DNA of 38,500 nt from Candidatus Omnitrophota bacterium (GTDB taxonomy: Bacteria; Omnitrophota; Omnitrophia; Omnitrophales; JACROU01). Both the position numbers and the translations under genes were made by a program. The notes beneath the pieces were generated by a model. It saw nothing but the letters and a program-made list of their open reading frames with translations. It did no database searches and had not been told where the DNA came from. The DNA lies in NCBI GenBank assembly GCA_029261035.1, contig JAJDCD010000023.1, positions 1 through 38,500 on the forward strand. Direction: 5' to 3'. Within the stretch, counting starts at the first letter, position 1. Every line of letters begins with the position of its first letter. Positions 1-38,278 of this stretch are shown one piece after another.

Positions 1-268
1 CGGAAGGAACCTCTCCAGGCGCTCAGACATGCTCGCCCTTTGGGCTGCGCAACTCGCGGCGGGTGAGGTTCCTTCCGACTCCTTCGTGTTAATAAGAACC
101 TTTGTGGTGGTGGGTGTTGCGAACAATATCTACATTGAGTAGCTCGTGTTCGCTTGGTATGATGTGTTTCATTATTATTTAAATAATGAAACGGTTTTTG
201 TTTTAGGAGTATAAACGTTTGCAGGGATAAAGGCGTTTGTTGAGGGTTATGTTTGGGTGAGGATTTAT
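1..268 (+). repeat. Three-hairpin intergenic element, copy A (may begin before the window)
   Basis: Hairpin I has arms at about 1-17 and 61-77 enclosing the constant strands GGCGCTCAGACATGC and GCGCAACTCGCGGC. Hairpin II is 119-153, with outer stem GCGAACA/TGTTCGC, inner stem CTAC/GTAG and loop ATTGA. Hairpin III is 166-192, an 11-bp stem starting GTTTCATTATT with a 5-nt loop. The conserved tail CAGGGATAAAGGCGTTTG is at 222-239 and AGGATTTA at 260-267. The same order of parts recurs at 4233, 5596 and 36666, and inverted at about 5877-6156. This copy lies just upstream of queD. Confidence 0.85.
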
Positions 269-4232: not shown

Positions 4233-4498
4233 GGAAGGAACCTCTCCCGGCGCTCAGACATGCTCGCCCTTTGGGCTGCGCAACTCGCGTCGGGAGAGGT
4301 TCCTTCCTCCTCCTCGTTTTAATTACAACTTTTTGGGGTGGGGGTGTTGCGAACAAGATCTACATTGAGTAGCTCTTGTTCGCTTGGTATGATGTGTTTC
4401 ATTATTATTTAAATAATGAAACGCTTGTTTATTTTAGGGGTATAAATTTTTTCAGGGATAAAGGCGTTTGTTGGCGGTTGTGTTTATGTAGGATTTAT
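4233..4498 (+). repeat. Three-hairpin intergenic element, copy B
   Basis: This is the clearest copy. Hairpin I arms are about 4233-4249 and 4291-4307, around the constant GGCGCTCAGACATGC and GCGCAACTCGCG strands and an inner GCCC-TTT-GGGC hairpin. Hairpin II is 4349-4383: a perfect 10-bp stem GCGAACAAGA/TCTTGTTCGC, then CTAC/GTAG, loop ATTGA. Hairpin III is 4396-4422 (11-bp stem, 5-nt loop). The tail CAGGGATAAAGGCGTTTG is at 4453-4470 and AGGATTTA at 4490-4497. It fills the gap between ppc and the PP-loop gene. Confidence 0.9.
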
Positions 4499-5595: not shown

Positions 5596-5868
5596 CGGAA
5601 GGAATCTCTCCCGGCGCTCAGACATGCTCGCCCTTTGGGCTGCGCAACTCGCGGCGGGAGAGGTTCCTTCCGACTCCTTCGCGTTAATACAAATCTTTTT
5701 TGGTGTGGCGTGTTGCAAATAAGATCTACATCGAGTAGCTCTTATTCGCTTGGCATAGTGTGTTTCATTATTATTTAAATAATGAAACGCTTATTTGTTT
5801 GTGGGAATATAGCTGCTATCTGGGATAAAAGCATTCGTTGTATGGAACATTTGATTTAGGATTCATTT
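5596..5868 (+). repeat. Three-hairpin intergenic element, copy C
   Basis: Hairpin I arms are 5596-5612 and 5655-5672. Hairpin II is 5715-5749, with stem GCAAATAAGA/TCTTATTCGC, CTAC/GTAG and loop ATCGA. Relative to copy B one C-G pair has become T-A, a compensatory change. Hairpin III is 5762-5788. The tail is TGGGATAAAAGC at 5821-5832, then GATTTAGGATT at 5853-5863. It lies downstream of the PP-loop gene and runs tail-to-tail into inverted copy E. Confidence 0.88.
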
Positions 5869-5876
5869 AGTTCTTA

Positions 5877-6156
5877 AACCTAAATCCTAAATCAATATTT
5901 CTTATTGTCTGGTGGTGTAATCCCTGTGGTTACTTTAAATCGTTAATAATTAACTGGGGTTTCGTTATGAATAGCATAACGAAACACATTAGATCTCTGA
6001 AGACAAGGGCCCTCGATGGCGCTCTTGTCTTCAATTTCTTTTTTTTCTAACAAGTCGTTATAACTTCCGCAAAAATATAATATTCCCGCCACGAGTTCAC
6101 AAAAATCGTTCCTCAATTTTTGTGCTGTCTGAGCGCCGGGAATATTATATTTTTGC
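5877..6156 (-). repeat. Three-hairpin intergenic element, copy E (inverted)
   Basis: Read on the minus strand it has the same parts in the same order. Hairpin I is a 20-bp stem, arms 6069-6088 and 6137-6156, AT-rich and unlike other copies apart from the CCC/GGG at its base; it encloses GGCGCTCAGACAGC and AACTCGTGGC. Hairpin II is 5999-6032, stem GAAGACAAG/CTTGTCTTC with apical ATCGA. Hairpin III is 5959-5985, GTTTCGTTATG with an exact 11-bp complement and 5-nt loop. The tail contains CAGGGATTA and GATTTAGGATTTA. Together with copy C it explains the whole 5564-6188 gap between the PP-loop gene and arsC. Confidence 0.82.
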
Positions 6157-12730: not shown

Positions 12731-12808
12731 TTCGTCGTCGGAATGGTTTTGGTTCGGCGCTCAGACAGCACAAAAGTGACTGTCACCTTAGGTGACTGTC
12801 ACTTTTGT
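12731..12808 (+). repeat. Partial three-hairpin element (copy F) interrupted by a GTGACTGTCAC hairpin
   Basis: GTCGTCGGAATGG followed by TCGGCGCTCAGACAGC (12754-12769) matches the left part of hairpin I. The inner hairpin is replaced by ACAAAAGTGACTGTCACC (12770-12787) paired with GGTGACTGTCACTTTTGT (12791-12808). The pairing is perfect except for one central T-T mismatch. The right strand, hairpins II and III and the tail are missing. Confidence 0.65.
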
Positions 12809-19770: not shown

Positions 19771-22700
19771 TTAAGCCATAACTGCAACGAGGCGTTTAGC
19801 TTTCATGAGCTGAATTAAGCCTGTGAGGACGCTCTCAGAGAGGGTGAAGCTGCCATCAGAGTCTTTTTCAAAAAGACCATCGGTTTCTAAGCCGAGGGCG
19901 AGATAGGCCGAGGCCATGGCATGAGCGGCTGCATACTCTTCGTCTTTGGAGAATTTGTCTGAATTGTATTTAAGGCGTTTTACATCTTCTCCCAAATCGG
20001 ATTTGAACTCCGAGCTGACTAAAGCCACATTTTCCGGAGACAGATTACTAAGTCCAGCTTTTCTAAGCATGGGACGAATAAATTGAGCGGCTCTTTGATT
20101 AATTAGATTTTGAACATCATATTCATTTAAAGATGAAAGCCCTTGAGAAGCATCTATTTGAGCTATTTTTGGATAAAACACAAATCCCATTCTTTTTCTT
20201 TGGAATAGGTTTGGATATGCTTTATTCAAACGATTTGCTTTTTGTCTGTTACCAATAAGGAAAAATAGTGCGGCACGGTCCGAGTTATAAATTTGATTTG
20301 TCTCTGCGGTTTCAAAACGTTTCACAAGGTCTTCATTTAGGGGCATAAAAACAGTTCCGACGCGATCTCCTTTGTAGTTCGTAACGCCATCCATAATTTG
20401 TTGCGCTGCCTTGTTTACATCTATGACATTTGCTTGAATAGTAGTAGGGAATGAGGTGGGCGCATTCATATTTAATTCAGTCTTGATGGAAGGAAGGATG
20501 TTATTAAAATAATCTTCAATGAAGGCGTTAGGAGTTTCAAACTCTCCTAAGATTGCTCTCATAACCCATTCGCTCAAAGTAACAGGGATTTTGTTGTCTA
20601 AGGAGTTTAAAGGAAGGGGTTGTAGCCCTGTTGGCAGTTCTTCAATATCAATTCCAGACAATAGCGTATAGACTTGGGCCCCTAAAGAAGAGGCGGAAAT
20701 GCGTGTTCGATTTCGATATTCATTCATTAATTCGTTGACGTTTGAAATACGACTAGAGATAGGGGAAGCAAGCGCTTGTGTTCGTTGAAAACCAGGAACG
20801 TTAACTCGAAGAGTTTGTCCACGGCCTGTCGGAGTAGTAGCTGATGAAGCTGCTTGTCCAACTCCTGTACTTTCATCTAAAGTTGTTTGCCATGTCGCTA
20901 TGGCTTTGATTAATTGGGAAACATCTTGTGCCATAAGATCTAAAGAGGCATATCGGTTTAGAGGGTTGGCATTCAATGCTTGATCTACAATCGTGTCCAA
21001 ACGCTCTGTGAGTTCTTTAGGTAAGGATACCCCTCGACGTTCAAGTATCAAACTTGGACGTTCATATTTAAGCTTTTGTCGAAGCATTGTGGTAGCAATG
21101 CCATCAAACTCATTTTTTTGTGTAAAATCGATTTCGTAGGGCAATCGACCGGTTAAAGCTTGGTACAGACTGACCCCTAAGGCATAAATATCAGAGCGTT
21201 GACTTTCTTTTCTGATGTATTGTTGATACTCGTCAATTTGATCTATATTGATGAGTCCTGCATTCCATAGGTCTTGAGTGGTTTGCCCTATTAATTCAGG
21301 AGCCATAAATTCTGGGGTTCCGTATATGATTTCTTCTTCTTTAATTTCGGAGCTCCATTTAAATAGGCCTAAGTCAATGACAACAACATTACCGTCTATA
21401 TCCATAATCAAATTAGCAGGTTTGATGTCCCTGTGAACACCCTCTCCTTTATCAGGATGTTTGGCTTTTGAGTGAAGTTCAAATAGGGCTGTTGCTGCTT
21501 TAACTCCAAAAATATCTAAAAGATCTTTGAGCATAGTTAATTTTGCGTCTTGTTTTCCAACAAAAAGAAGTTGGTTTTCTGTGATCAAGTTTAAAGGCTT
21601 TCCTTCAATAAACTCCATAGCATAACTATTTCCATTTTCGGCAACATATCTGGGAATAGACTGAATACCTGCTTGAGAGGTGAGGTAAGAGTGGTTTTCT
21701 TTCTCTTTTTTAAATAGATCAACATTGTAAGGATTTGTTTGCTCGATCAGTTGTTTTATTGCTAAAAGTTGGCCGTCGGCGCGTTCCACTAAGTAAACAG
21801 CACCAAAACCCCCCACACCAAGAGAGCGAAGGACTTTAGCTTTGACGGCGCCTAGAGATTCAGCTTGTACTTGGATCTCATTTATTTGCTCTGAAAGAAA
21901 TTCTGGAGCAAAGCCTACTTCTTCTAAGGCGTTCCGTATCTCTGCTGGATCCTGAGGGTTGAAGCTCTCAAAGGCTGTTAATTGGGGGGGGGCTTGATAA
22001 AGGTTTGCCATTTGTCCTAACGATTGAGCTTGAATAACTTCATCCAGTAAGCGGTCTGTTTCATAGATCTTCACTCGATCAAATTCAAAGAAATTAAATC
22101 CATTAAAGGAAACGCGAATGAAGGGCTCTAAAACGTTATTGAGTTTAGCCATTCTCTGTTTGGCAAAGATTTGTTGGGCACGTTCTGGAGAATCGCGAGA
22201 GAGTTGTGTGAAGAGGGTTCTCAGAGTATCTGTTAATTTATTTTTGAGTATTTTTTTGTACTCTTCATAAGGCTCATTATAATCTATAGGACTAATCTTT
22301 AAACTTTCATAAAAATCATCGGACCAATTGAGATCTTTTACCTGTAAGGGAAAGATTTTATTCAAAAGCGTTTTAACTGCTTTTTCTAACATTGCAGGAG
22401 CCAATGCCGGGGAAGCCAACTCAACTAAGGCGGCCCTGGAAATAGGCGTGCCCGTAATTTGATATCCAAATTGTTGAAATAGAAATCTAACTAGGTCTTT
22501 GTTGATGCTATTTTCTGAATAGTCTAGCCCAGAAAGAAAATCGGTTAACATTTCTTGAAATTCATCTAAACCTTCAATGCCTGTCTCCGCTACTTCGTCT
22601 GAACTATCCAACTCATCTAAATCTTCCAACTCCTCAATTTTCATCTCCTCTACTTCCCATTCTTTTTCTTGCAATTGAGCTTCACCCAATACGCTTAAGT

Positions 22701-25700
22701 CTATTTTTTCAAAAATATCTTTAAGGTCTTCTGCTTCTGTATAAAAAGCCTCGAATTCGGAGCTGGAAATAGGTTGTAAACCTTTGCTTTCCAGCGCGTA
22801 ATTAAGGGCGTATAAGATTTCCCAACGCACTATTTCTGCTTCTAGCTTTTTATCTAAGTCCTGAAGGATAGAATAATTGGCTAGGGGATTTCCGCTAAGA
22901 GCTACATAGAACAGGTCTACAAGGCTTTCGGGAATAACATCTAAGGAGAGGTTGACATCGATTTCGAATTTTCTAGCCAAATCACTCCTTACATTCTTTA
23001 GATAATTTTCAAATACAGTTCCAAATCTTTCTCGATTTAGTTCATTCTTTTGAGAGAGTTTTCTTAAGGAAAGGCTCATAGCTTGAAGACCGCGGAATTC
23101 ATTGATGTTTATAGTTTCGTTTGTAGTTCGACTTAAAATAGCATTGAGGGCTTGCTCTAGCTGTTCTTTCATCATATCGGATACGATTCTTTCCAACCGT
23201 TTTTCCAATTGGCGTGCTGCGGATCTATTTTTAGGGTTGGGACTCAAAAGGGTGGTGATAGCATCTTGAAGCCTTTGTGGAAAAGAGAAGTCAGCGACAC
23301 CAGACTCTTTTAAGCTTTGGTCTAAAGATTGAATATCCTGAGGCTGTATCCCTGCGATTTTCTTTTTTGCTTGGTCCTTGCTTAATCCAATGAGGTCGAA
23401 AGGAAGTTTTCCAGTCAACAAGTGATGGAAGACAACTCCAAGTGAAAACATGTCTGACTTTTGAGATACTTCCCGTATGTTTCCGGCGGCCATTTCTGGG
23501 GAGTTGTAAGCAATAGACCCTCGTCGGGTATTCTCGGGTAGAGTTTGTGTTTCTTCTTGTGTGATGGCTAAACCTAAATCGAAAAGTCGGACAGTTCCGT
23601 AGGTATCTATATAAAAGTTTTCTAATTTGAAGTCGTTGTTAATTTGGCCCGTTTGAGCTTGGTAATTTTGTACAGCTTTGGCGATGGCAAGCATATCAAA
23701 AACACGCGTAAATAAAGAGGCGGATTCATAATCTTTTATAGTGTTAGGAAAAACGTTTCTATTAGCGAAATATTTATCATCAAGAAATACCCCGCCTTCT
23801 AATAGCTCTATCGCAATATAAGGCTGTTTCCATTTTATGGAGCTTTCGGGATCTGTCACCACTTCGTAATTTTGCTCATAGATACGTACCACATGAGGGG
23901 ACTTTTCCGCGGCTTTTAAGATCTGAGCTTCACGGGCAAAAACACGAGTTGCTCTTTGTAAGGCTTCCTTACGACTCCCTAATTCTCGGGTTAACATTCT
24001 AAGGTAACGGTTGGAAGGTCTTTTGACTGCGACCATTGGAATATTTGTGCCGAGTGTTTTAATGGGAGCTTCTAATTCTACGCGGTCGATAACTCCCATT
24101 GATCCTTCTCCGATACTTTGAGAGGTTTTTACATTGGCTTTTGTGACAACTCTTTTGTCGCCGAGAGATTGGGCACTGAAAATACTTTCTTCAAATGGAG
24201 ACGTTGGGAATTTTTCAAAATCATCTTCCTCCTCTAGGAGAGGTAGGGTGGTGAAAGTAGTGTGTTCAGCAGAACCTCTTTCTCTATCCTGTCGGGCTTT
24301 GTAGCGTTTAAGAATAGAATCAAGAAATTTATCGTCTGATTTTTTTTCAGGAGCTTCTTTTTTTTCATCAAGAGGCGCTATATTGAAAAAATCCAAATCA
24401 ACATCGGCAAAGGTTTCTTCTTTTTCGATCACTCGTTTAGGCTTTACAATTTCATTGACAGAAATCGTAATATTGTTGGTGTTTATTATCTCTATAATTT
24501 GACCGAGTTCTCTTATTAAGCTCTCCGTTGAGGGACGTTCTTCAGGCCGCATGCGAACCGCTTTGTACATCAACTCAACCAAAGGATTTAATACTTCTTC
24601 AGGAATTGTTAATTCAATACTTCCAAATTCTTTCATGTCGCTTAAGAATTTTTCTTTAAAATCTTCTAAGGAAATGGGACTTTTACCCTTATTTAAAACA
24701 TCATCAAAATAGAGTCTCATTATGCTGAAATCTGTTCCGTAAGGGGCTGTTCCAGTAAACAAGAAATAAAGATTGACCCCCCAAGCATAAATGTCTGCTT
24801 TTTCGTCAATAGCATTAAGTTCACCTACTAACATTTCTGGAGAAATATTGATTAAACTTCCAATTTCTTTTGTTATGGAGCCCTTTCGAATTGCTTCTTT
24901 GGTTTGGGCCAGACCAAAATCAATTATTTTGACATTGCCATCTGACGTTAAGAGGGTATTGCCTAGTTTTAAATCTAGATGCACAATACCTTTAGAATGA
25001 ATATAGCTTAGGCCTTTGGCAAATTCTTGCATAATTTGAAGACGGTCTTTAAAGCCATATTCTTGAAATTGGCTATACAAATCAGAGGTATCCCCTGAGC
25101 CTTCTTTTTTAAAGATCAGCTCTATGAGCTCTTTGCCTTCGACAAGCTCCATCAATAGATACTCTGTTTCTTTTAAATTATCTGGAAGCTCTTGTTCGAA
25201 AGAAAGATCCGTCATTTTCCCATCTGTAATATATTCAGGGATGTAAGGAGAACCTTTCAGTCGTTCTAAAAGAGTAGATTCATTATTAAAACGGATCCTA
25301 GATTTTTCAGCGTCTTCGTAGGGACCCGGGGTATTGGTTTTTAATGCGAAATGACGATCTATATTAGAGATATCAAAGACAGTTCCTTGGGTGCCTTGCC
25401 CTAAGCGTCTTTCGACTGAGAGTGTTCCTAGAGCATTGGCAACGACGGTTTCTTCCAAAATAAAACTTTTGCCAGGCTCTACGAATTCTTCAACAGAATC
25501 AGCAGCAAAAATAGGTGGTGCAGCCGCTTGCCTTGGAGGCGGGAGAGTCTCTCCCGTAATAGCCGTTTGATTTCCAGTGACAGAAACGTAGTTTGGCACT
25601 CCATCCAGAGTTTCACCGGCGTCCTCTTGTGAATCAATAAATGTAAGAGGTATTCTGGGGTCAGTAACAATATCTACATATTGAATGCGAACACTATCAG

Positions 25701-28700
25701 GGGAGTCTATTGTCAAATCTGAGATAGCGGTTATGATTTGATCTAGTTGTTTAATCGCAGAAACGAGATCTATTCGATCGTCTTTTTCTGGATCCATCAG
25801 CTTTTGGATTATGTGAATGATGCGTTCAAAAATTTCTTTTGGAATAATTAGTTCTAGCCCAAAATCTTCTAAATCAGATTTGAAATTTGTGCTTAGCACT
25901 TTTTCTAACAAAACAGAAACTTTAGAAGGGTCATTTGGGAATCTTACTTGGAGTTGTTTTTTCTCTTCTGTTTTATTGAAAATTCTTTGGGCCAGCTCTG
26001 GAAGAGAATTACCGGTTATAGGCAGGCTGCCTGTTAAAATTTTGTAAGCCAATACACCTAATGCATAAATGTCGGACTTTTCACTATTTGCGTTAGCGTC
26101 ACTTACTATCATTTCGGGGGAATAGTAGTACGGAGTTCCAACAGCCACACCTTCTCTTTCTTTTGTGTCCAATTTTCTAGCGAGCCCAAAATCAAGCAAC
26201 CTTACCTCTCCCGAAGCTGTTTTCATCAAGTTTGCAGCTTTGATGTCTTGATGTATGGTTCCCTTAACGTGTGTTGATAGAATAGCTTTAGCGGCTTCTC
26301 GTATAGTCTCTAGCCGGTCCAAGAGATCATAGGAAGAAACATCTGGGTTCGAATATTTTTGTTCTAAATTTTCTCCTTCAACAAGTTCCATGACAATAAA
26401 TAGATCATTGTCTTCGAACGGGATATTTTCTATTTCAAACTGGAGCTGAGACAGGGTTCCATATTCAATGATTTTGGGAATGTAGGGGGATTCGTCGAGT
26501 TCTTGCATGAATTTTCCTTCATTAATAAATCGAGTTCTTTGTCTTTCGTTGGCAGATTGTGCATTCTTCATTACTTTTAGAACAAACCGTTTATCTCCTT
26601 GCTGTAATTCGTATACGATACCCATTCCGCCTCTTCCTAGTTCTTTAACAATGGTGTAACTGCCTAGGCTGAAGCCATCGGCTGATTGAATGTCTACATT
26701 AGTTTGAACTAAGGAATCTGCTTTTGGTTCAACGAGTTTTTGAATGGAAGTTATGTTTTCAGCAGGAAAGGCTTTTATTTGCTCTGGGCCAGCGTCATCT
26801 ATGAGCTGAATTGTTTTTTCTAATCCTTCAATGGCTTCATCAATATTAAGACGGCCTTCTGGTGTTGCATTGAGAAGACCCGTTATTAAGTTGATGAGGC
26901 TATCAAAAATAGTTTCTGGAATAAAAACCTGTGTCTTTGCTCTATTAACTAAGTCACTATGGAATTGGTATCTCCACTCTTCCCGTAAAATTTCTATCCC
27001 TTTGTTTGCATCCTGGTTAAGTCGGCGGTGTTGTTTAACAAGCATTTCTTCAATACTTCTTCCTTTAATGGCAGGGTGACCGGTAAGGATCTGATAGAGG
27101 ATAGCACCCAGAGAATAAACATCGCTCGGTTCTAGAGCTTTTGTTTCTCCGCGTAATAACATTTCTGGAGAAACTGTTTGGATTGTTCCAACTGTTCTTA
27201 GTTGATTCCCAAATTCAGCTAAATCTTCTTTTGTTATTGCCAGTCCAAAATCGAGAAGTTTTACATTTCCATTGGCATCCAGGATGAAGTTGGATGGCTT
27301 AACGTCTCTATGAAGGATTCCTCGTTTCTGAACATCTTTAATGGCTTTGGCTGCTTCGAGAATTGCTTTAAGTCGACTGGAAAGATCAAACTGTTGATAG
27401 CTGAGATGCATTGCCTGCTTGTTAATAAACTGATCTTCAAAGGTTTGTCCGGAAACAAGTTCCATAATTAAGTAAAGGTCGTTTGGGTTCAGTTGAATTT
27501 TATCTGAGCTTACAGTTAGGTCCCTAACGGAGCCGCTTTCGAATGTGTCTGCAACATAAGGGGAGGTGCTTAGTAATTTTTGTAGGCTAATTTCTCTTTG
27601 GACTTTTTGAGGGTCTCTTTGGCTGGAATCAAAGATTTTCATTGCATAGGACTTGTCTCCTTGTCTCAAAGCATAAATAACTCCTTGAGCGCCTCTTCCA
27701 ATTTCATGTTCGATTGTGTAAGACCCTAAAGAGTTTGCCGTGCTTACTTCAACATCAAGGCTTGAAGTCAAAGCAATAGGAATCGAAGTAGGTGTGCCGT
27801 CAATAGAGATGGTTACGGTTCCAACTTGAGAATAGTTGTTGGAAACATTTTTAATTCCTTCTCGTAAGTCCGAATTTTCTGAAGTGGGGAGGATAGCTAT
27901 TTCAAATAATGTTCCTTCGTTATTGGAAGCCGTGATGATGTTTCCTTCTGTTTTTATTGGAGTTAAGGAGCCGTCAAGCGATTCGATAATGGAATTAACT
28001 GTATCCGTTGAAATAACCACATCCGTTGTGGCCACTTCAATGCTGGTGTTGACACTCACAAATAAAAACTGAGAGTTATCTTCCAGAGGATGAGCGGTTT
28101 TAAACAGAACATTCTCTGGGGAAGGTTGCTTGAGTAGTCTGTCTGCCGTTTTTTTATCTACGAGTGATGTGATGATGTTAACTGAGACCCCATTAATATT
28201 AAATTGCATTCCATTGTTCATAGTTTGACGGCCTGCAATATTTTTCTTTGAAGCATTTGATACAGCAGCAGAATAAGCAGATACGGTGCTGGGAGCCAAT
28301 TGACTTAGAAGGCTTTCGGTAAGCATAAAGGTGCTCTGAGCCGTAGGGGAGCCCTCAACGAAGCTGCTTCCAGGTTTCGTTGTGAAGTAGCTTACAGCTT
28401 TTTCCAGGTCTTTGTTTTTTCCGGCAAGGGTTCTCCAATAAAGAGAGGCGTCTTGGTCTAATCCGACTTGAGGTACCAGTAACGCATAGGCTGTATTGGA
28501 GTCTTTAAAATAGTCTGTTAATTCTTTGGCATGAAAACCGCCTACGACTAAAAAAGCTGTTTTGTCATTTTGGTTTTTCATTAGTTGGTTTAAATTTTTG
28601 AAAAGCTCCTTGTTTCGTTTTAGGGCACTTTCATAAAAATTTTCCGCTTCTCTCAAAACTAAAACAGATTCATAAAAATTGTCTTCAACTTGATAGCTCA

Positions 28701-29967
28701 TTAAATACTCTTTGAAATACTGATTTAGAACTTTCCAGTAATTGGAATCGGTTAAAGTTTTTTTGTGCGATTTAAAATAAGCGTATTCTTCATCGGTTAC
28801 TTCCAATACCCATAGTTTTTCTATTAAACGAAGCATCCGGTCTCGTTCCGCAATATTTTTTTCTCTGCCGCTTTCGCTAAACGCATTAATGAGGAGAAGG
28901 TAGATGTCTTCTAGGTCCGTAAAAAATCGATCAGCATCTATGGAAAGAGTAGAATTTAAATAAGTGATATATTTGTTTGTTTCATTTAAAACTTTAGGAT
29001 GAGCCGGTGCTTGACGAAGCATTTGTTCTAGATTTTGGACAAACAGGCGCCCCTCTTGTTTGGATTCAAAAGAAAAGGGAGAGCGAAACACCCCTAAAGA
29101 TTGAAGTTCTTGAGTGAGCTGGGGTTTATTTATTTTGTTTTCAATATCAATCAGGTTTTTCATCGTTTGATAAGAAGAAAAGCGGCTAAGAGAAATATTT
29201 TTTACTTTAGCTAAGCCCTCTAAGCTAACAAAGTGCTCTTTAATACTTTGTGGATTTTTTTCAAAATGCTTGATGGTTTCATCCAGTTTTTTTAGAAAGT
29301 AGGAAAATGCTCTCCGCTTTAATTCATCAATTGCTTTTCGGAGGAGGGGGAGATCAAATTGAATGCGTTGTTTTTTTTTCTCAGCATTTTTAAAAGCCAT
29401 TACATTTTGATTATATAAAGAAATATCCTCGATGCCGAAAAGGCGTGCGTTTGGATTGTAGTTTGCCTTGTAATATTCAGAGCCATCGAGCTTGCCTTCA
29501 TTAAGTAAAAAATCAGAAATAGCTCTGCGAGCTTTGTCGATGGGATTGGCTGTTAAAACAGAGTAATCCAGTTTTTTCTGGACGTTGGTTCCTTCCAGAG
29601 CAACTAAGGGAGCTTGGTTTGGGAAAAGCTGAGGAGCCTTTTTTGTTAAATAATCATAAATTTTTGCTGTAGAGTATTGAGCTTTAATATTATTGTGAGG
29701 GTCTTGCATCACAAAGATAAGACGATCTACTTTTTTATCAGGAACAAAAACTTCTGTGATGAAACCGAATTTGTCAGGGATCGATATGTTATTGAGTGTG
29801 TCTTTCAGTCCAGAGAAGGAAATATTTGTTTTGTTAACAGGAGTTAGATAAGAACTTTGAGCAGAAACCGGACCTGTGGCAAATACACTTTGAAGAAGAA
29901 AAAAGCAGAGTGTAAGCCAAGCGATTGTTCGCTTCCAAATTGTAATGGGCCGAGAGTTGCGAATCAT
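19771..29967 (-). CDS. Giant exported protein 2: TIKI/ChaN-like domain plus five Ser/Thr kinase domains
   Basis: This protein has 3398 residues. The N-terminus is basic, then hydrophobic (TIAWLTLCFFLLQSVFA), ending near VSA at about 36, a Sec-type signal. Residues about 75-510 share the two-histidine domain of the other giant proteins: MQDPH, ALEGTN, GIEDISLYNQN and VGGFHAKEL at about 476. Five Hanks-type kinase domains follow. K1 (about 750-1055) has GRGAQG, AMKIF, HRDVKPSN, DFG. K2 (about 1100-1415) has GRGGMG, VLKVM, HQDIKAAN, DFG. K3 (about 1513-1825) has GQGTQG, ALKTN, HLDLKLGN, DFG. K4 (about 1935-2265) has GEGSMG, AVKRP, NNDFKLEN, DLG. K5 (about 2705-3020) has GVGGFG, AIKQL, HRDIKPAN, DLG. 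All five keep the ATP lysine, catalytic Asp, Asn and metal Asp. Acidic helical linkers lie between K3 and K5. A-x-S-L-G motifs precede K1, K4 and K5 and other junctions. AGAGGAG is the ribosome site. The C-terminal ~300 residues are unrecognised. Confidence 0.9.
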   Translation of the reverse strand: MIRNSRPITIWKRTIAWLTLCFFLLQSVFATGPVSAQSSYLTPVNKTNISFSGLKDTLNNISIPDKFGFITEVFVPDKKVDRLIFVMQDPHNNIKAQYSTAKIYDYLTKKAPQLFPNQAPLVALEGTNVQKKLDYSVLTANPIDKARRAISDFLLNEGKLDGSEYYKANYNPNARLFGIEDISLYNQNVMAFKNAEKKKQRIQFDLPLLRKAIDELKRRAFSYFLKKLDETIKHFEKNPQSIKEHFVSLEGLAKVKNISLSRFSSYQTMKNLIDIENKINKPQLTQELQSLGVFRSPFSFESKQEGRLFVQNLEQMLRQAPAHPKVLNETNKYITYLNSTLSIDADRFFTDLEDIYLLLINAFSESGREKNIAERDRMLRLIEKLWVLEVTDEEYAYFKSHKKTLTDSNYWKVLNQYFKEYLMSYQVEDNFYESVLVLREAENFYESALKRNKELFKNLNQLMKNQNDKTAFLVVGGFHAKELTDYFKDSNTAYALLVPQVGLDQDASLYWRTLAGKNKDLEKAVSYFTTKPGSSFVEGSPTAQSTFMLTESLLSQLAPSTVSAYSAAVSNASKKNIAGRQTMNNGMQFNINGVSVNIITSLVDKKTADRLLKQPSPENVLFKTAHPLEDNSQFLFVSVNTSIEVATTDVVISTDTVNSIIESLDGSLTPIKTEGNIITASNNEGTLFEIAILPTSENSDLREGIKNVSNNYSQVGTVTISIDGTPTSIPIALTSSLDVEVSTANSLGSYTIEHEIGRGAQGVIYALRQGDKSYAMKIFDSSQRDPQKVQREISLQKLLSTSPYVADTFESGSVRDLTVSSDKIQLNPNDLYLIMELVSGQTFEDQFINKQAMHLSYQQFDLSSRLKAILEAAKAIKDVQKRGILHRDVKPSNFILDANGNVKLLDFGLAITKEDLAEFGNQLRTVGTIQTVSPEMLLRGETKALEPSDVYSLGAILYQILTGHPAIKGRSIEEMLVKQHRRLNQDANKGIEILREEWRYQFHSDLVNRAKTQVFIPETIFDSLINLITGLLNATPEGRLNIDEAIEGLEKTIQLIDDAGPEQIKAFPAENITSIQKLVEPKADSLVQTNVDIQSADGFSLGSYTIVKELGRGGMGIVYELQQGDKRFVLKVMKNAQSANERQRTRFINEGKFMQELDESPYIPKIIEYGTLSQLQFEIENIPFEDNDLFIVMELVEGENLEQKYSNPDVSSYDLLDRLETIREAAKAILSTHVKGTIHQDIKAANLMKTASGEVRLLDFGLARKLDTKEREGVAVGTPYYYSPEMIVSDANANSEKSDIYALGVLAYKILTGSLPITGNSLPELAQRIFNKTEEKKQLQVRFPNDPSKVSVLLEKVLSTNFKSDLEDFGLELIIPKEIFERIIHIIQKLMDPEKDDRIDLVSAIKQLDQIITAISDLTIDSPDSVRIQYVDIVTDPRIPLTFIDSQEDAGETLDGVPNYVSVTGNQTAITGETLPPPRQAAAPPIFAADSVEEFVEPGKSFILEETVVANALGTLSVERRLGQGTQGTVFDISNIDRHFALKTNTPGPYEDAEKSRIRFNNESTLLERLKGSPYIPEYITDGKMTDLSFEQELPDNLKETEYLLMELVEGKELIELIFKKEGSGDTSDLYSQFQEYGFKDRLQIMQEFAKGLSYIHSKGIVHLDLKLGNTLLTSDGNVKIIDFGLAQTKEAIRKGSITKEIGSLINISPEMLVGELNAIDEKADIYAWGVNLYFLFTGTAPYGTDFSIMRLYFDDVLNKGKSPISLEDFKEKFLSDMKEFGSIELTIPEEVLNPLVELMYKAVRMRPEERPSTESLIRELGQIIEIINTNNITISVNEIVKPKRVIEKEETFADVDLDFFNIAPLDEKKEAPEKKSDDKFLDSILKRYKARQDRERGSAEHTTFTTLPLLEEEDDFEKFPTSPFEESIFSAQSLGDKRVVTKANVKTSQSIGEGSMGVIDRVELEAPIKTLGTNIPMVAVKRPSNRYLRMLTRELGSRKEALQRATRVFAREAQILKAAEKSPHVVRIYEQNYEVVTDPESSIKWKQPYIAIELLEGGVFLDDKYFANRNVFPNTIKDYESASLFTRVFDMLAIAKAVQNYQAQTGQINNDFKLENFYIDTYGTVRLFDLGLAITQEETQTLPENTRRGSIAYNSPEMAAGNIREVSQKSDMFSLGVVFHHLLTGKLPFDLIGLSKDQAKKKIAGIQPQDIQSLDQSLKESGVADFSFPQRLQDAITTLLSPNPKNRSAARQLEKRLERIVSDMMKEQLEQALNAILSRTTNETININEFRGLQAMSLSLRKLSQKNELNRERFGTVFENYLKNVRSDLARKFEIDVNLSLDVIPESLVDLFYVALSGNPLANYSILQDLDKKLEAEIVRWEILYALNYALESKGLQPISSSEFEAFYTEAEDLKDIFEKIDLSVLGEAQLQEKEWEVEEMKIEELEDLDELDSSDEVAETGIEGLDEFQEMLTDFLSGLDYSENSINKDLVRFLFQQFGYQITGTPISRAALVELASPALAPAMLEKAVKTLLNKIFPLQVKDLNWSDDFYESLKISPIDYNEPYEEYKKILKNKLTDTLRTLFTQLSRDSPERAQQIFAKQRMAKLNNVLEPFIRVSFNGFNFFEFDRVKIYETDRLLDEVIQAQSLGQMANLYQAPPQLTAFESFNPQDPAEIRNALEEVGFAPEFLSEQINEIQVQAESLGAVKAKVLRSLGVGGFGAVYLVERADGQLLAIKQLIEQTNPYNVDLFKKEKENHSYLTSQAGIQSIPRYVAENGNSYAMEFIEGKPLNLITENQLLFVGKQDAKLTMLKDLLDIFGVKAATALFELHSKAKHPDKGEGVHRDIKPANLIMDIDGNVVVIDLGLFKWSSEIKEEEIIYGTPEFMAPELIGQTTQDLWNAGLINIDQIDEYQQYIRKESQRSDIYALGVSLYQALTGRLPYEIDFTQKNEFDGIATTMLRQKLKYERPSLILERRGVSLPKELTERLDTIVDQALNANPLNRYASLDLMAQDVSQLIKAIATWQTTLDESTGVGQAASSATTPTGRGQTLRVNVPGFQRTQALASPISSRISNVNELMNEYRNRTRISASSLGAQVYTLLSGIDIEELPTGLQPLPLNSLDNKIPVTLSEWVMRAILGEFETPNAFIEDYFNNILPSIKTELNMNAPTSFPTTIQANVIDVNKAAQQIMDGVTNYKGDRVGTVFMPLNEDLVKRFETAETNQIYNSDRAALFFLIGNRQKANRLNKAYPNLFQRKRMGFVFYPKIAQIDASQGLSSLNEYDVQNLINQRAAQFIRPMLRKAGLSNLSPENVALVSSEFKSDLGEDVKRLKYNSDKFSKDEEYAAAHAMASAYLALGLETDGLFEKDSDGSFTLSESVLTGLIQLMKAKRLVAVMA

Positions 29968-36551: not shown

Positions 36552-36571
36552 GTTGGGTTGATGCCCAGGGA

Positions 36572-36611
36572 ATGTTCTTCGGTGCTCAGACAGCATTGAC
36601 CCGAAGGGTCA
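36572..36611 (+). repeat. Partial three-hairpin element (fragment D')
   Basis: GGTGCTCAGACAGC (36581-36594) matches the constant left strand. It is followed by an inner hairpin TGACCC-GAA-GGGTCA (36597-36611), unlike the GCCC/GGGC of other copies, then AGCAACGC, which resembles the right strand. The outer arms are not complementary, so this looks like a decayed or partial copy. Confidence 0.5.
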
Positions 36612-36665
36612 TAGCAACGCTTCGTGCCTGCCTGCCGTTAGGTAGGGCGGTGAAAGTGGTTGGGC

Positions 36666-36929
36666 GACCTTATCATTCTCCCGGCGCTCAAACATGCTCG
36701 GCCTTTGGCCTGCGCAACTCGCGGCGGGAGAATGCTAAGGTCTCTTAAGTTATTACTTTGTGGGGGAGTTAGAGGGGTTGGCAAAAGAAGTGCATCGAGC
36801 ACTTATTTTGCCTTGGTTTAATGTGTTTCGTTATTTTATTAATAACGAAACGCTTGTTAGTTGTTAGCGGTTTTTGGTGATTCAGGGATAAAGGCGTTTA
36901 GGGCAATGAGGGGTTGATTTAGGATTTAT
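36666..36929 (+). repeat. Three-hairpin intergenic element, copy D (diverged stems)
   Basis: Hairpin I arms 36666-36682 (GACCTTATCATTCTCCC) and 36726-36742 (GGGAGAATGCTAAGGTC) differ from copies A-C in most outer positions yet still pair, with one mismatch. Its inner hairpin is GGCC-TTT-GGCC instead of GCCC/GGGC. Hairpin II, 36780-36812, is a 14-bp stem with one mismatch and a new sequence, still with loop ATCGA. Hairpin III, 36825-36851, is GTTTCGTTATT with exact complement. The tail CAGGGATAAAGGCGTTT is at 36883-36899 and TTGATTTAGGATTTA at 36914-36928. It lies upstream of the ferredoxin gene. Confidence 0.9.
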
Positions 36930-36950
36930 TTTTTATCTCCTTCATATTTT

Positions 36951-37348: not shown

Positions 37349-38227
37349 ATGTCAGTTCAAATGTTAAAGTCTAAGAAAAAGAAAACTGCTCAACAATTGA
37401 TTCGTGTGGGTCATTCCCCTGATGCGGATGATGCATTTATGTTTTATGGAATTAAATATGGGAATGTAAATACCCACGGTTTAAAATTGGTCGATGTGAT
37501 TGAGGAAATTGAACTGTTGAATCAAAGAGCGCTTCGTTGCGAACTTGAAGTGACTGCAATTTCAGTACATGCCTTTTCTTTTCTTGCGGATTTTTATGAC
37601 ATTATGAGTTGTGGTGTCAGTATGGGGGATGGTTATGGGCCTCGTTTGGTGTGCCGTAAGAAGGCTAAGTTTAAAAGTTTAAAGGGGAAGGTTGTTGCGG
37701 TTCCAGGGCGCTTCACAACCGCTTATCTTCTACTGAAACTTTGGGGCAAGGGTGATGGAGAGATTCGTTTTCTTCCCTTTGATAAAATTGTTCCTGCAGT
37801 TCAAAAAGGGGAAGTAGATTACGGTTTAGTGATTCACGAAGGACAAATTCTTTTTGAAGAGTATGGTCTTAAAAGTATTGTTGATTTAGGAACTTGGTGG
37901 ATGGAAAAAACAAAATTACCTGTTCCTTTAGGTATTGATGTTGTTCGAAAAGATTTAGGAGCACCTCTGCAAAAGAAAGTTACAAAAATTCTTCATTCCA
38001 GCATTGAGTATGGATTGAAGAATCGTGACAAAGCCATTAAGTATGCATTGAAATACGGCCGGGGTATGGACGTGGGGACTGCAGATCAATTTGTCGGCAT
38101 GTATGTCAATAATTGGACTCGAGACTTAGGCCCCAAAGGAAAAAAGGCTATTACCGAAGTCCTAAGCAGAGCGGCCAAAGCCAATCTCATCCCAAAAGTG
38201 AACTTCAAAATCATACAAGCGAAATAG
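37349..38227 (+). CDS. MqnA/MqnD-family protein (futalosine-pathway menaquinone synthesis)
   Basis: This 292-residue protein has the periplasmic-binding-protein-like fold of the MqnA/MqnD family. MqnD makes 1,4-dihydroxy-6-naphthoate and MqnA dehydrates chorismate. Motifs fitting the family are VGHSPDADDAFMFYGI (about 19-34, the substrate-binding SP..DD.F segment), TAISVHAFSFLADFYDIMSCGVSMGDGYGPRLV with the conserved His and the GxGYGP loop, VAVPGRFTTAYLLLKL, and DYGLVIHEGQ. The SVHAF and VIHEGQ patterns favour MqnD over MqnA. There is no signal peptide, which argues against a transporter binding protein. No other mqn gene is visible, so the pathway assignment is inferred. AAGGAG precedes ATG 37349. 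The stop codon lies inside the left arm of the hairpin at 38221-38278. Confidence 0.78.
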   Translation: MSVQMLKSKKKKTAQQLIRVGHSPDADDAFMFYGIKYGNVNTHGLKLVDVIEEIELLNQRALRCELEVTAISVHAFSFLADFYDIMSCGVSMGDGYGPRLVCRKKAKFKSLKGKVVAVPGRFTTAYLLLKLWGKGDGEIRFLPFDKIVPAVQKGEVDYGLVIHEGQILFEEYGLKSIVDLGTWWMEKTKLPVPLGIDVVRKDLGAPLQKKVTKILHSSIEYGLKNRDKAIKYALKYGRGMDVGTADQFVGMYVNNWTRDLGPKGKKAITEVLSRAAKANLIPKVNFKIIQAK

Positions 38228-38278
38228 TGACTGTCACCAGGCTGCGTACCCGCAGGCCATGGTGACTGTCACTATTTC
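38221..38278. repeat. REP-like hairpin with GTGACTGTCAC arms, overlapping the mqn stop codon
   Basis: GAAATAGTGACTGTCACC (38221-38238) pairs with GGTGACTGTCACTATTTC (38261-38278), except for one central T-T mismatch. Inside, GGCTGCG and CGCAGGCC form a second stem. The arm core GTGACTGTCAC is the same as in the hairpin at 12770. It may also end the ferredoxin-mqn transcript. Confidence 0.6.

Follow-up and report, generated by a model that had tools for sequence, protein, structure and literature searches.

A probable REP-like family of palindromic DNA repeats in Omnitrophota, with a hairpin core shared by distant bacterial phyla

Integron attC sites combine a hypervariable sequence with a conserved folded layout, and are positioned just past the stop codon in the sense of the gene, while Rickettsia palindromic elements are palindromic repeats that are inserted in frame in protein genes. 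The REP families of the GTAG and CGTC types carry terminal tags and short conserved stems, and two of the Rickettsia elements, RPE-4 and RPE-6, have been grouped with the CGTC REPs (PMC3733652). As for how paired arms can be kept complementary, quasipalindromes in E. coli are made perfect by template switching (PMC7202029), and the same process has been put forward for Nematomorpha mitochondria, where concerted change of the two arms occurs within coding genes (PMC6649704).

The repeats described here lie in a stretch of 38,500 nucleotides (the window) that makes up positions 1 to 38,500 of contig JAJDCD010000023.1, from the Candidatus Omnitrophota bacterium assembly GCA_029261035.1. Each copy is built from three hairpins (I, II and III) and a tail, as detailed below for copy B.

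1-268, plus strand: copy A, truncated by the start of the contig
4234-4307, plus strand: copy B hairpin I, with a hypervariable outer arm at 4234-4248 and its 3' arm at 4292-4307
4249-4260, plus strand: constant core GGCGCTCAGACA of copy B hairpin I
4261-4281, plus strand: inner variable hairpin of copy B hairpin I
4282-4291, plus strand: constant AACTCGCGTC of copy B hairpin I
4349-4383, plus strand: copy B hairpin II, stem GCGAACAAGATCTAC / GTAGCTCTTGTTCGC, loop ATTGA
4396-4422, plus strand: copy B hairpin III, stem GTTTCATTATT / AATAATGAAAC, loop of 5 nt
4453-4497, plus strand: copy B tail, CAGGGATAAAGGCGTTTGTT .. AGGATTTA, the 3' end of the repeated unit
5596-5866, plus strand: copy C
5877-6156, minus strand: copy E, its core 52 nt past the stop of a minus-strand gene of 148 aa
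12735-12815, plus strand: degraded copy, the left half of hairpin I with its core at 12756 and a GTGACTGTCAC palindrome pair in the loop; the right half is gone
36565-36660, plus strand: degraded hairpin I half, with GGTGCTCAGACA at 36581, abutting copy D on its upstream side and lying 3' of a 568-aa gene
36666-36935, plus strand: copy D

The five copies A to E reported in the initial annotation were all found on reading the window, in the common order of hairpins I, II and III, tail and AGGATTTA, although copy A is incomplete at the contig start, the tail with AGGATTTA is degenerate in copies C and E, and copy C has TGGGATAA where a CAGGGATA tail had been described for all. The paired changes that had been listed also agree with the sequence, namely the replacement of GCGAACAAGA by GCAAATAAGA in hairpin II, the wholly different hairpin II stem of copy D, and the series CATTATT, CGTTATT and CGTTATG in hairpin III, each with its matching partner. 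Two further, degraded copies are present in the window, with cores at 12756 and 36581. The GTGACTGTCAC palindrome pair is found at 12776-12802, again at 38225-38275, and elsewhere in the genome. Also within the window, positions 19771-29967 hold an open reading frame of 3398 aa, one of several very long genes of this genome, and single frames span entire 20-kb samples of contigs C18, C26 and C4.

The family is far larger than the five copies from which it was recognised. Searching the genome (2.70 Mb in 26 contigs), as the initial annotation had proposed, returned 43 BLAST matches to copy B, 49 exact matches to the hairpin I core GGCGCTCAGACA, and approximately 58 credible core loci at up to one mismatch, the last count leaving out four core matches inside genes; these whole-genome counts rest on searches together with fetched stretches. 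The unit in this genome is a 265-bp composite of three hairpins, the first of which is formed by the hairpin I core. Hairpin II is recognisable in about 38 copies, with ATCGA, GTCGA or ATTGA as its loop (RTYGA across the family), and hairpin III with a GTTTC-RTTA stem is present in 30 copies; others carry unrelated palindromes in its place. Only a subset of the copies is preceded by CGTCGTCGG. Two contigs, G000:C16:1 and G000:C19:1, start within element copies, suggesting that the assembly breaks at recent copies and that copy number is therefore probably underestimated. Since it is the stems that differ between copies, and not the whole elements, only copies A, B and C and the copy on C19 give a view of recent spread of the unit as a whole.

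The arms of hairpin I are near-perfect inverted repeats of 16-31 bp, with sequences that are unrelated between most sites; for instance, the stem at locus L250 is approximately 29 bp long and almost perfect. In 51 copies from this genome, positions 5-16 of the outer stem are 92-100% paired, as compared with means of 39-74% when the 3' arm was shuffled 1000 times, and almost every position in this range has three or four Watson-Crick pair types, each at least twice. Pairing is likewise far above that of shuffled arms when 84 copies from elsewhere are added to these 51, with all four Watson-Crick pairs at most stem positions. An ungapped alignment of 47 sequences from this genome and from other phyla has 96.8% of its cells paired, and a covariation score of 0.946 versus 0.187 for shuffled arms (0 of 500 shuffles reach the observed score) and at most 0.217 for slid arms, which makes the covariation stronger than had been claimed from the window alone. 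Hairpin II shows the same behaviour in 38 copies, most positions being 95-100% paired versus 45-85% after shuffling. In some copies a weak additional outer helix closes hairpin I, runs of at least seven Watson-Crick pairs occurring in 19% of copies versus 7% after shuffling.

Whether such pairing is kept in RNA or in DNA can be read from the cells that are not Watson-Crick pairs. A single transition in a Watson-Crick pair yields G.T or A.C equally, of which an RNA stem tolerates only G.T. The hairpin I stems of this genome have 12 GT versus 12 AC, those of other phyla 12 versus 42 (12 versus 23 without one fixed-mismatch position), and hairpin II 3 versus 10. As controls, tRNAs from the same DNA gave 17 GT versus 0 AC, a ratio that the tRNA finder may itself tilt towards G.U; and among gene-end hairpins outside the family, chosen by a rule blind to G.T, the terminator-like ones with a T-tract gave 6 versus 0 and the others 61 versus 37. 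No G.U preference is visible in the element stems, on counts that are small and come from copies that share ancestry. Thus, it appears to be copying at the DNA level that maintains the pairing, and not selection acting on a folded RNA.

With respect to genes, the core is found 25-57 nt past a same-strand stop in most copies of this genome, and at a median of 33 nt from the stop in other phyla, where gene context at high-GC loci comes from a rough ORF picker whose 'opposite' class is unreliable. Several copies of this genome sit between divergent genes. The upstream genes are mutually unrelated, and the idea that they form one family or regulon was rejected on that ground; nor was any shared gene found near the elements. 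In this genome the element nearly always points the same way as the gene upstream of it, and none of the copies shows a core that alone is flipped relative to hairpins II and III. Hairpin I has no T-tract behind it in the sequences read, and a T-rich stretch comes after hairpin III. The copies are nearly all on the leading strand, with an orientation that tracks the strongly biased gene strand of the genome, and replication and transcription direction are consequently inseparable. The strand bias was for this reason dropped as a sign of single-stranded DNA insertion, gene strand bias being sufficient to explain it.

Outside this genome, a scan of 84,980 species genomes for the exact core pattern lists matches in Olsenella, Thermophilibacter, other Atopobiaceae, Omnitrophota, Eisenbacteria, one planctomycete and one gammaproteobacterium. 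The exact core, GGCGCTCAGACA..AACTCGCGGCG, is thus present in at least five bacterial groups (Atopobiaceae, Eisenbacteria, Planctomycetota, Gammaproteobacteria and scattered Omnitrophota), and its occurrence across them is multi-copy and patchy. A covariance model, the search of relatives that had been suggested at the outset, was positive in 18 of 285 Omnitrophota genomes (17 of 224 genera) with up to 15 candidates scored per genome, most of the positive genomes being multi-copy. Nine genomes reached through named records hold 31, 26, 13, 13, 9, 9, 5, 3 and 3 copies, and in Olsenella inverted pairs of elements approximately 100-150 bp apart are common. Comparison with Rfam at gathering and relaxed thresholds returned only sub-threshold chance hits, in keeping with the initial statement that no named family has this layout. 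IMG/VR, plasmids and phages gave no match to the element, and literature searches on the motif, on Olsenella repeats and on Omnitrophota palindromes turned up nothing about the family.

Comparing the same site between species shows that the element is present at some and missing at others, and that it is found in both orientations. In the slot 3' of metG, the element is in sense at L327, L330 and L335 and inverted at L328 and L329; other palindromes occupy the slot at L331-L334, terminators occupy it at L336, L338, L339 and L355, and it is empty at L337, L344 and L345. At an Eisenbacteria site, the empty relative retains only GGCC-GGCC. Cores flipped between similar arms are evident at metG, in the pairs L140/L178 and L198/L203, and between the gltB group and L206. 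An automated tally of inverted sites is an overcount, so that only displayed sites are relied on here; L135/L184, for instance, was flagged as an inverted pair by the script and proved to have the same orientation when displayed. Among the loci L327-L335, it can also be noted that many stop codons of Olsenella are immediately followed by CGAGAAG, which is met again, as GGCGAGAAGG, in arms of the element.

More extreme is the case of gltB (named from sequence motifs) in the Olsenella group, where the element lies in frame within a variable linker, in sense at L118, L144, L164 and L177 and inverted at L206 and L357, with a partial element at L359. The linker carries other palindromes in place of the element at L358 and L387, and is without the element at L360, L362, L388, L389 and L390. 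The arms still co-vary in frame, L118, L144 and L164 differing at several paired positions that change the amino acid. The outer left arm of L164, GCGCCCGACC, occurs in L358 without the core and is therefore likely to be host coding sequence; the inverted repeat of this arm is confined to L164, on the right-hand side of the element. As a separate observation, this glutamate synthase linker (L118, L144, L164, L177, L206, L357-L390) is a hot spot for several unrelated in-frame palindromic repeats in the Olsenella group. In-frame insertion in coding genes was not seen in the genome of the window. These sites also bear on how the compensatory changes are to be interpreted. The initial annotation took compensation as a sign of selection for the fold, whether in a structured RNA or in a single-stranded DNA target; its co-varying stems, its lack of a named RNA family and a single-stranded DNA fold as a possibility have held up, but the step to selection is unsupported when A.C is as common as G.T, and is further countered by the two core orientations at orthologous sites and by arm co-variation inside the gltB reading frame.

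An obvious candidate for moving such repeats is a Y1 transposase of the RAYT kind, and four RAYT-like Y1 genes (L213-L216) are found in this genome.

C18:332816, RAYT-like Y1 gene
C16:193129, RAYT-like Y1 gene
C15:54569, RAYT-like Y1 gene
C8:28407, RAYT-like Y1 gene

Each of the four adjoins a different palindrome (GTGACTGTCAC, GGGACAGTCCC, GCCCGGGC and AAGTGCCAGGCC), and two palindrome types associated with Y1 genes (GTGACTGTCAC and GGGACTGTCC) are inserted in the hairpin I loop of many copies. The element itself flanks none of 34 Y1 loci, and 5 of 16 carrier genomes have no Y1 transposase gene; a RAYT/Y1 enzyme was accordingly rejected as the mobiliser. No target-site duplication could be defined.

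Taken together, we consider it probable that the elements are small palindromic DNA repeats, of the kind represented by REPs and Rickettsia palindromic elements, whose arms are kept complementary by template switching. The fixed part would be a short hairpin core, in which an asymmetric internal loop, GGCGCTCAGACA .. AACTCGCGGC, encloses an inner hairpin that can be replaced, and the arms would probably be built from local sequence, one arm being converted from the other by template switching within the hairpin at a replication fork. Template switching could also flip the core and extend the palindrome into flanking host DNA, as the few sites with apparently host-derived arms suggest, such that a single process would explain perfect but unrelated arms, the lack of a wobble preference, flipped cores, and arms that reach host DNA. 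The element would be mobile, with copies coming and going at the ends of genes and, in rare cases, within reading frames, and in the genome of the window the core would have become part of the 265-bp composite and spread to approximately 58 places, mostly just past stop codons. Template switching leaves the cross-phylum invariance of the asymmetric core unexplained: arm conversion should symmetrise the core, and something must therefore select or read it.

Alternatively, the element could be a structured RNA at mRNA 3' ends (a stabiliser, terminator or protein-binding site) whose internal loop is recognised and whose stems are free to vary. An internal loop that is invariant between phyla, a core 25-57 nt past a same-strand stop in most copies here and in other phyla, an almost constant orientation in the genome of the window, and retention of the element at orthologous nrdD and metG ends in several species would all fit. 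This reading is nevertheless unlikely, as the stems have no G.U preference, orthologous sites show both orientations, presence is polymorphic, no consistent T-tract is apparent in the sequences read, and copies occur between divergent genes, ahead of start codons and within the gltB frame. In the genome of the window a role in the transcript may exist, for which the near-constant orientation of the composite is the strongest argument left. Less likely still is a substrate of active single-stranded DNA transposition or recombination, RAYT-like or integron-like, in which the folded internal loop is read and the arms are made at insertion by inverted copying of the flank. The invariant folded core, inverted pairs that resemble REP dimers, arms composed in part of host sequence at gltB, and perhaps also at L267/L197, and the leading-strand position of nearly all copies here are in line with it, but the leading-strand bias is confounded with gene orientation, Y1 transposases neither co-occur consistently with the element nor flank it, and species differ in their arms at one and the same site, meaning that arms change after insertion as well. 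We place even less weight on a dedicated enzyme that recognises the folded single strand by its invariant internal loop, with insertion copying the host flank into the inverted arm and creating a new palindrome at each target. Finally, it is scarcely credible that these are decayed ends or fragments left by an insertion sequence, a MITE or a CGTC/GTAG REP family that is already described, whose consensus would then carry GCTCAGACA..AACTCG. While CGTCGTCGG does stand before hairpin I in some copies of this genome, and REP families typically include dimers and copies inside genes (PMC3733652), known families have conserved stems of 5-13 bp and terminal tags, whereas the element has stems of 16-31 bp with unshared sequence, no tag common to the phyla, and no counterpart among plasmids, phages or IMG/VR sequences.

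The probable REP-like repeats described here extend the palindromic repeat families by one whose core is identical in distant phyla and for which no mobiliser is known. They also urge caution in the use of covariation, for very strong covariation can arise from DNA-level arm conversion, and scores alone do not prove a functional RNA. RNA and DNA explanations are separable by counts of G.U and A.C, by orientation at orthologous sites, and by copies inside genes, and the cultured Olsenella and Thermophilibacter species make gain, loss and flipping of the element testable.

Among the described systems, integron attC sites share with the element hypervariable sequence and a conserved fold after stop codons; the element, however, has no cassette array, its constant and variable parts are reversed, and no R or L boxes were seen. 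The coding palindromes of Nematomorpha (PMC6649704) are similar in being near-perfect inverted repeats in genes whose arms change together, including non-synonymously, but unlike the element they neither share a conserved core nor belong to a single dispersed family. The resemblance to Rickettsia palindromic elements, with which no sequence relation was seen, is one of behaviour, in that the element is inserted in frame in gltB of the Olsenella group, where it is also found inverted at the same codons. Like REPs, BIMEs and REPINs (PMC3733652), the elements are multi-copy intergenic palindromes near gene ends, patchy in distribution, with compensatory stem changes, and they occur as dispersed extragenic copies and as inverted dimers. 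They differ in that the conserved part is an internal loop rather than a tag, stem or terminal loop, that no common tag (GTAG or CGTC) stands at the foot of the stem, and that in place of a conserved stem of 5-13 bp there are arms of 16-31 bp, with four pair types and mostly unrelated between sites, around a core that is identical across phyla; nor does the repeat flank a Y1 gene as expected of a RAYT-mobilised REPIN. As a structured RNA the element has neither an Rfam score at the gathering threshold nor wobble-tolerant compensation, G.T being equalled by A.C. Thus, the element behaves like REPs and Rickettsia palindromic elements but fits no existing family, and is best read as a new REP-like family.
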